A stretch of DNA of 64,000 nt, taken from positions 1 through 64,000 of the forward strand of contig NZ_JASZYV010000005.1 in assembly GCF_030316895.1 (NCBI RefSeq), written 5' to 3'. Positions 12,831 to 12,967 of the stretch are shown one piece after another (position 1 is the stretch's first letter; each line of letters begins with the position of its first letter). A program made the position numbers and the translations under genes. Origin of the DNA: Variovorax dokdonensis (GTDB lineage Bacteria > Pseudomonadota > Gammaproteobacteria > Burkholderiales > Burkholderiaceae_C). Below the pieces are notes generated by a model, which ran no database searches, was not told where the DNA came from, and worked only from the letters and a program-made list of their open reading frames with translations.

Positions 12831-12859
12831 TTGAATGAGTTTGGATATTTTGTTAAATT
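12831..12859 (+). promoter_or_regulatory. sigma70-like promoter of the candidate small RNA
   Basis: A -35 like TTGAAT (12831-12836) and a -10 like TAAATT (12854-12859) are separated by 17 bases. Transcription would begin near 12866. The surrounding sequence is markedly AT-rich compared with the rest of the window. Confidence 0.5.
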
Positions 12860-12865
12860 TGAGGT

Positions 12866-12967
12866 TGGACGGCTTGCCGTCCCCCGCTTTTCCTCCCTGA
12901 GCGGGTGCCTTGATGTGTGACAGCAAAAGGGCTTCCCGCCCGACGTGCGAACGTCGGGCTTTTTTTT
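12866..12967 (+). ncRNA. candidate small RNA, about 100 nt, three hairpins
   Basis: No coding frame is evident. A predicted transcript from about 12866 would fold into three parts. Hairpin 1 is a 6-bp stem GGACGG/CCGTCC with a CTTG loop (12867-12882). Hairpin 2 is CCCGC/GCGGG (12883-12905), with a C/U-rich loop that contains CCTCCC, complementary to Shine-Dalgarno sequences. The terminator hairpin follows (12938-12967). A single-stranded AG-rich stretch lies between hairpins 2 and 3. The arrangement (promoter, anti-Shine-Dalgarno loop, strong Rho-independent end) is typical of trans-acting small RNAs. I cannot name a family from memory; a covariance search would decide. Confidence 0.6.
12938..12967 (+). 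terminator. intrinsic terminator of the candidate small RNA
   Basis: A perfect 9-bp stem GCCCGACGT/ACGTCGGGC with a GCGA (GNRA-type) tetraloop is followed by eight T residues (12960-12967). There is no plus-strand protein gene upstream that it could serve. Confidence 0.9.

Follow-up and report, generated by a model that had tools for sequence, protein, structure and literature searches.

What is encoded between the divergently transcribed hemB gene and the hemJ-type gene of Variovorax dokdonensis, and when would it be expressed? The window, that is, the whole 64,000-nt stretch of DNA that was analysed, had received a preliminary description that placed here an unannotated small RNA with an anti-Shine-Dalgarno loop and raised a link to haem or iron control. 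The features of the locus are given below; the 5' end of the sRNA gene was inferred from the promoter and its 3' end from the terminator.

11689-12699, minus strand: hemB (delta-aminolevulinic acid dehydratase), divergent neighbour (PF00490, 460.8 bits)
12831-12836, plus strand: -35 hexamer TTGAAT of a sigma70-type promoter, from the sequence and the genus comparison
12854-12859, plus strand: -10 hexamer TAAATT, with a 17-nt spacer to the -35 hexamer, from the sequence and the genus comparison
12866-12967, plus strand: anti-hemB sRNA gene, about 102 nt (Rfam RF02837 match; the homologue ncS04 has 105 nt)
12867-12882, plus strand: 5' hairpin GGACGG/CCGUCC, from the fold, mostly before the start of the Rfam match at 12880
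12883-12905, plus strand: hairpin presenting the loop UUCCUCCCU, a putative anti-Shine-Dalgarno sequence, from the fold (99.2% of cells paired)
12892-12897, plus strand: CCTCCC in that loop, from the sequence
12907-12932, plus strand: third hairpin GCCUU/AGGGC, from the fold (four of five pairs changed on both sides)
12918-12924, plus strand: UGACAGC element in the third hairpin, from the comparison of own-family loci
12938-12967, plus strand: intrinsic terminator with a U8 tail, from scan and fold
13053-13475, plus strand: HemJ-type membrane protein (UPF0093), downstream neighbour (PF03653, 147.4 bits)

Sequence and fold recovered all the parts of the preliminary description in the order that it gave. 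The CCTCCC loop was at 12892-12897, and the terminator, which had been called very strong, consisted of a 9-pair stem (12938-12959) with a GCGA loop of the GNRA type, followed by eight T at 12960-12967. The position between hemB and hemJ was also correct, with hemB divergent and the HemJ gene downstream on the same strand. The folding energy of segment 12862-12967 was -49.1 kcal/mol, whereas its shuffles averaged -34.9 kcal/mol (z = -4.3), and none of 200 shuffles reached as low a value. Terminators of this class were not rare locally (three found, 2.7 expected in 2 kb). The claim that the stretch holds no frame was not confirmed, as mechanical open reading frames cross it on both strands. After hemB lies a gene for a CorA-like Mg2+ transporter (10488-11675, minus strand; PF01544, 139.8 bits).

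The sigma70-like promoter matched 8 of 12 consensus positions and so was not listed by a consensus scan with a threshold of 9 of 12. It is credible despite this score because 29 of the 30 genus loci compared (the best-scoring loci of the 60 genomes with a match), that of the window among them, have TTGANN-N17-TAAATT; the sigma70-type promoter is thus conserved in the genus. Three other loci of the window's family (L043, L050, and L066) carried TTGACA-N16-TATAAT at the same place.

A covariance-model search, which had been named beforehand as a check, matched 12880-12967 (plus strand) to the Rfam family RF02837, anti-hemB, over the full length of the model (1-81) with 62.9 bits against a cut-off of 49.5. 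The window sequence therefore holds a real sRNA gene that belongs to an already catalogued family; the gene is not new, and the word "unannotated" has to be withdrawn. The architecture of hairpin, hairpin and terminator with base-pair conservation was present (the terminator stood outside the pair counts), and hemB was divergent, with its start 181 nt from the sRNA core. Most of the covarying 5' hairpin falls outside the Rfam match.

In the available text of PMC3521395, anti-hemB appears among known sRNAs. Its homologue in Burkholderia cenocepacia, ncS04, is described in the accessible parts of PMC4603805 and PMC5688073 as a transcript of 105 nt that is co-purified with Hfq, is documented on a Northern membrane, has its 3' end placed by RACE, and lies between BCAL0264 and BCAL0265 in the arrangement <- -> <-. 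The window RNA resembles anti-hemB/ncS04 (RF02837, Burkholderia RNA 7) in sequence, structure, terminator and length (about 102 versus 105 nt), and it shares the place beside hemB that the family name implies. It differs from it in the UGACAGC of the third hairpin and in the GNRA terminator loop. As far as the available portions of the literature found under its names go, anti-hemB is listed or its expression is recorded, and no function is reported.

Another catalogued family embodies the same principle. RF02278, the Betaproteobacteria toxic small RNA, has a first hairpin bearing CCUCC that is followed by a terminator, and the window RNA scored 21.7 bits with its model; it might accordingly be a member of this double-hairpin family with a general anti-ribosome action. 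However, the gathering score is 50 bits, which the window RNA fails, and a true RF02278 copy with 62.0 bits stands elsewhere in the genome (C2:901740-901802), so that these are two separate genes. We regard membership in RF02278 as extremely improbable. According to the accessible parts of PMC5688073, PMC11722255 and PMC12235514, the RF02278 RNAs (ncS03/05/27/62) have, like the window RNA, a C/U-rich single-stranded seed complementary to Shine-Dalgarno sites and an intrinsic terminator; their structure and locus are different. The only RF02278 sRNA of the genome above the cut-off (L033) lies about 1.6 kb from the best-scoring porin gene (L169, C2:903399-904433), on the opposite strand.

Membership in suhB/MmgR (RF00519) was rejected (18.6 bits against a cut-off of 41); that model also includes a CCUCCCU stretch, in a different arrangement. 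A second match to anti-hemB in the same genome (C4:63037-63107) scored 33.1 bits, below the cut-off, had no supporting feature and was treated as a chance match. This second copy (L002) and a weak paralogue (L137) were excluded from the motif, element and genus tallies and were kept in the neighbour counts.

The family is widespread in Betaproteobacteria. Of 300 genomes of the order, 232 had a match at E <= 0.001 (190 above the cut-off), as did 208 of 250 genomes of the window's family (197 above the cut-off). Since 3 of 14 control genomes also matched at E <= 0.001 and none of the 14 exceeded the cut-off, the above-cut-off counts are the safer ones. Within the genus, 60 of 61 genomes carried anti-hemB, the lone exception being a genome that is 88% complete. 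One own-family genome (G234) had six anti-hemB matches, including a tandem pair separated by about 100 bases, which makes a sibling sRNA array (L044, L134, L135, and L136; C10:720992-721257, C10:707444-707528, and C1:1099291-1099377).

For covariation, 70 sequences from 41 families were picked for spread among 131 loci; the pair counts exclude the terminator, which was poorly aligned. Pairing was kept in 94.3% of cells, and 11 of 17 pairs were changed on both sides, values that none of 500 shuffles equalled on any of five measures. Compensatory changes were present in three stems, so the stem conservation that had been set beforehand as a check was confirmed. The 5' hairpin covaried most, with changes on both sides of all five pairs. 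The loop hairpin was nearly unvarying, its stem included; the loop core was almost invariant among the 70 sequences, and CCTCCCTGAG occurred in 128 of the 129 sRNA cores tallied. The preliminary view of a discrete sRNA gene is thus borne out by a conserved promoter of its own, a conserved loop, a strong terminator, compensatory stem changes and the Rfam match.

The neighbours bear on the proposed link to haem. HemJ followed the sRNA in 47 of 131 loci, every one of them from the window's own family, and for this reason is no general partner. hemB was divergent upstream in 97 of the 131 loci read (a set that contains paralogues and two places below the cut-off). This arrangement, the name of the family, and a pairing of the loop with the window's own hemB start region that was slightly better than in shuffles (-16.5 versus -14.0 kcal/mol) would fit a local regulator of haem synthesis that acts on hemB, either by pairing with the leader of its mRNA or as an antisense RNA to it. 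Over 94 loci, however, the mean energy between the loop and the hemB start region was -14.0 kcal/mol, compared with -14.2 kcal/mol for letter-shuffled copies, where the hemB start codons were chosen by rule and some are doubtful. The sRNA and hemB are divergent, with a median distance of 143.5 nt from the hemB start to the sRNA core, and in several own-family loci a CACAAT box lies so close to the hemB ATG, a few bases upstream, that the mRNA would have almost no leader. Moreover, Table 2 of PMC5688073, a source available in part, gives no significant qPCR change of ncS04 under any of the seven conditions assayed, one of which was low iron. A local role at hemB is consequently very unlikely in our judgement, and the suggested haem or iron link was not upheld, given that pairing at the hemB start equalled the shuffles and ncS04 was unchanged at low iron. 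The conserved GGCACAATTTT box lying a few bases ahead of the hemB start codon (12700-12715, minus strand, in the window; also L060, L078, L082, L086, L092, and L094) could serve as a -10 box, in which case the hemB mRNA would have no leader or almost none.

A different indication came from the promoters of the homologues. RybB and MicA are sigmaE-dependent sRNAs of enterobacteria that repress outer-membrane protein mRNAs. The accessible parts of the literature give GGAACTTTT and GTCAAA as the known sigmaE promoter (PMC1804206), GGAACTT and TCAAA for Escherichia coli, and a different -35 element with TCTAA at -10 for meningococci (both PMC2893595). A motif resembling the known sigmaE promoter stands upstream of the anti-hemB core outside the window's family. 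It was first noticed by eye in loci that were counted later. In its strict form it was present in 40 of 64 other-family loci, 15-25 nt before the core (shuffle mean 0.36), these loci comprising 63 distinct sequences with up to four loci per family.

The rpoE gene served as an internal control. The strict pattern was found before rpoE in 0 of 30 cases, and a slightly wider pattern gave only scattered matches across whole rpoE loci. Reading of the upstream regions of rpoE revealed GAACTW-N-GTCT, and the -10 part was relaxed to TCT after this reading. The relaxed motif GAAC[TC][AT]-N16/17-TCT (approximately GAACTW-N16/17-TCT) occurred upstream of rpoE in 18 of 30 genomes (shuffle mean 0.08) and before anti-hemB in 37 of 64 other-family loci, representing 27 of 40 families (shuffle mean 0.23). 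It was absent from the other 27 loci and 13 families, and in controls it was found in none of 64 loci on the reverse strand and in none of 638 neighbouring windows. Because the relaxed pattern had been chosen after looking, 20 held-out genomes were tested with the pattern fixed; it was present before anti-hemB in 13 (shuffles 0.04) and before rpoE in 11 (shuffles 0.07). The motif was thus absent before rpoE in 12 of 30 and 9 of 20 genomes. When the closing A of TCTNA was required as well, 35 of 64 anti-hemB loci but 0 of 30 rpoE sites matched; hence the -10 boxes of the two genes are not alike in every detail.

In 12 whole genomes, the strict motif had 14 exact sites, fewer than its reversed control (41), and 4 of the 14 were anti-hemB promoters. 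The motif alone is therefore no proof; the proof is its fixed place before the sRNA. The motif together with the end of the 5' hairpin was present in at least 118 stretches of titled genomes, and 94 of those 118 held the sRNA core. Among the matches listed, the core was found in Azospira, Thauera, Azoarcus, Nitrosospira, Methylobacillus, Thiobacillus and others; of the 80 titled matches listed, six were plainly outside Betaproteobacteria, and none of the six held the core. The other-family homologues thus have a promoter of the RybB/MicA class in 37 of 64 loci and in 13 of 20 held-out genomes, and, judging from the promoter sequences, sigmaE (RpoE) probably drives anti-hemB in many of the order's other families. 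A promoter of the envelope-stress type hints at a possible role of anti-hemB. No report of it was found in the literature searched, outside of which most subscription journals lie.

The window's own family differs in this respect. Own-family loci numbered 62 once three from a single genus (g166) had been set aside after looking; the sigmaE motif is retained in two of these three. Of all 65, the relaxed motif occurred in four, namely the two in g166 and two in which it lay off position, about 69 nt from the core. It was not found at the window's own copy, which lacks a promoter of the RybB/MicA class, or in the 1 kb before rpoE of the window's genome. The sigmaE motif was thus present in 37 of 61 other-family loci and 2 of 62 own-family loci. 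The third hairpin carried UGACAGC or a one-base variant in 61 of 62 own-family and 0 of 61 other-family loci, whereas a C-rich terminator loop was found in 1 of 62 and 54 of 61 loci, respectively. These counts indicate that the two groups differ in all three features at once: promoter, loop element and terminator loop. Three loci of family f32, counted apart, had none of the motif, UGACAGC and the C-rich terminator loop. The new point is accordingly a sigmaE-type promoter in many members outside the window's family and a sigma70-type promoter inside it.

The sigmaE promoter is probably the older state, judging by its spread over families and by the comparison of groups. In the window's family, the sRNA should be expressed constitutively, independent of envelope stress. 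Six loci (L024, L028, L099, L360, L365, and L370) have a -35 element of the GAACT or GAACC type joined to a TATCAT(A) -10 box; such mixed promoters could perhaps be read by both sigmaE and sigma70 and are possible intermediates of the promoter change. In other-family loci, the C-rich stretch of the terminator loop, such as CUCCCCUU (examples L005-L018), is possibly a second Shine-Dalgarno-pairing site.

Taken together, we consider it likely that the window RNA is an Hfq-dependent, Shine-Dalgarno-pairing, trans-acting anti-hemB sRNA, probably sigmaE-driven in origin and here constitutive. The sRNA would be made as an RNA of about 102 nt and is predicted to bind Hfq at its U-rich 3' end, the U8 of the terminator resembling an Hfq-type end. 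Its loop UUCCUCCCU would pair with Shine-Dalgarno regions of the GGGAGG type in several unlinked mRNAs, and this pairing would block their translation, the action being in trans and not on hemB. Transcription by sigmaE in other families would give it there the same kind of wiring as RybB and MicA, and in the window's own family, where a sigma70-type promoter stands in the place of the sigmaE type, it would be constitutive.

The anti-Shine-Dalgarno reading of the loop is plausible and has a precedent, in RNAs other than anti-hemB. In Bordetella pertussis, the accessible text of PMC12235514 reports that two C/U-rich sRNAs account for most of the sRNA-mRNA chimeras on Hfq by RIL-seq, and that the targets of both share a Shine-Dalgarno-like motif. 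S17, which is at the same place as one of these sRNAs, directly represses a target (available parts of PMC11722255); it corresponds to CT_433 and is similar to RF02278 (PMC11722255 and PMC12235514, to the extent available). In the window's own genome, AGGGAGGA was found before ATG at 12 sites compared with 1 in the control; six of the 12 precede frames of at most 20 aa, and the 12 sites gave no coherent gene set.

The sigmaE-type promoter in many families raises the reading that the sRNA represses outer-membrane protein mRNAs, porins above all, like RybB and MicA. For comparison, 30 of 69 listed porin matches were fetched, of which 29 were used and one was without a usable start; of 30 LysR control loci fetched, 29 were entered and 28 had a start. 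LysR genes often have weak ribosome sites, which makes them a poor control. GGAGA was present in the ribosome sites of 16 of 29 porins and 4 of 28 LysR genes, which fits the UCUCC loop that is common outside the window's family. With this sigmaE-type loop, the duplex energies of porins and LysR genes differed at p = 0.033 with 29 porins, but at p = 0.074 with 26, when three starts that look wrong (L190, L192, and L195) were dropped. The 16S tail separated the two groups better (p = 0.017 and 0.019), and porins may therefore simply have stronger Shine-Dalgarno sites. The window-type loop gave p = 0.16 and 0.29, and GGGAGG, its best partner, preceded the start codon in 0 of 29 porin and 3 of 28 LysR genes. 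The window's genus, moreover, has the sigma70-type promoter in 29 of 30 loci. The comparison of 29 porins with 28 LysR genes thus gave no support for porins as targets, and we think a porin-repressing sRNA unlikely.

The likeness between anti-hemB and RybB or MicA lies in the sigmaE-type promoter, which anti-hemB has in many other families, and in the predicted action of anti-hemB as a blocker of ribosome sites. We claim no homology; the window copy has a sigma70-type promoter, and outer-membrane targets of anti-hemB are hypothetical. The MicA-like CT_532 of Bordetella pertussis is, like anti-hemB, betaproteobacterial; in the available portion of PMC12235514 it is Hfq-dependent, linked to an outer-membrane protein mRNA, located between bp3441 and pyrD, and apparently RpoE-independent.

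By itself, the window RNA adds another member to a catalogued family and is of little surprise; that family is found in most of the searched genomes of the order. The sigmaE-type promoter provides the first, cheaply testable idea of when this RNA is made and what its role may be. Anti-hemB may be the sRNA arm of the betaproteobacterial sigmaE envelope-stress response, an unrelated counterpart of RybB and MicA, which in the window's family (and apparently in f32) would have been rewired to constitutive sigma70 transcription while gaining UGACAGC, in the own family only, and losing the C-rich terminator loop; on the comparative evidence, we see the chances of this proposal as evenly balanced. 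If it is true, a single conserved sRNA would have passed from sigmaE to sigma70 promoters, a clear-cut example of regulatory rewiring.
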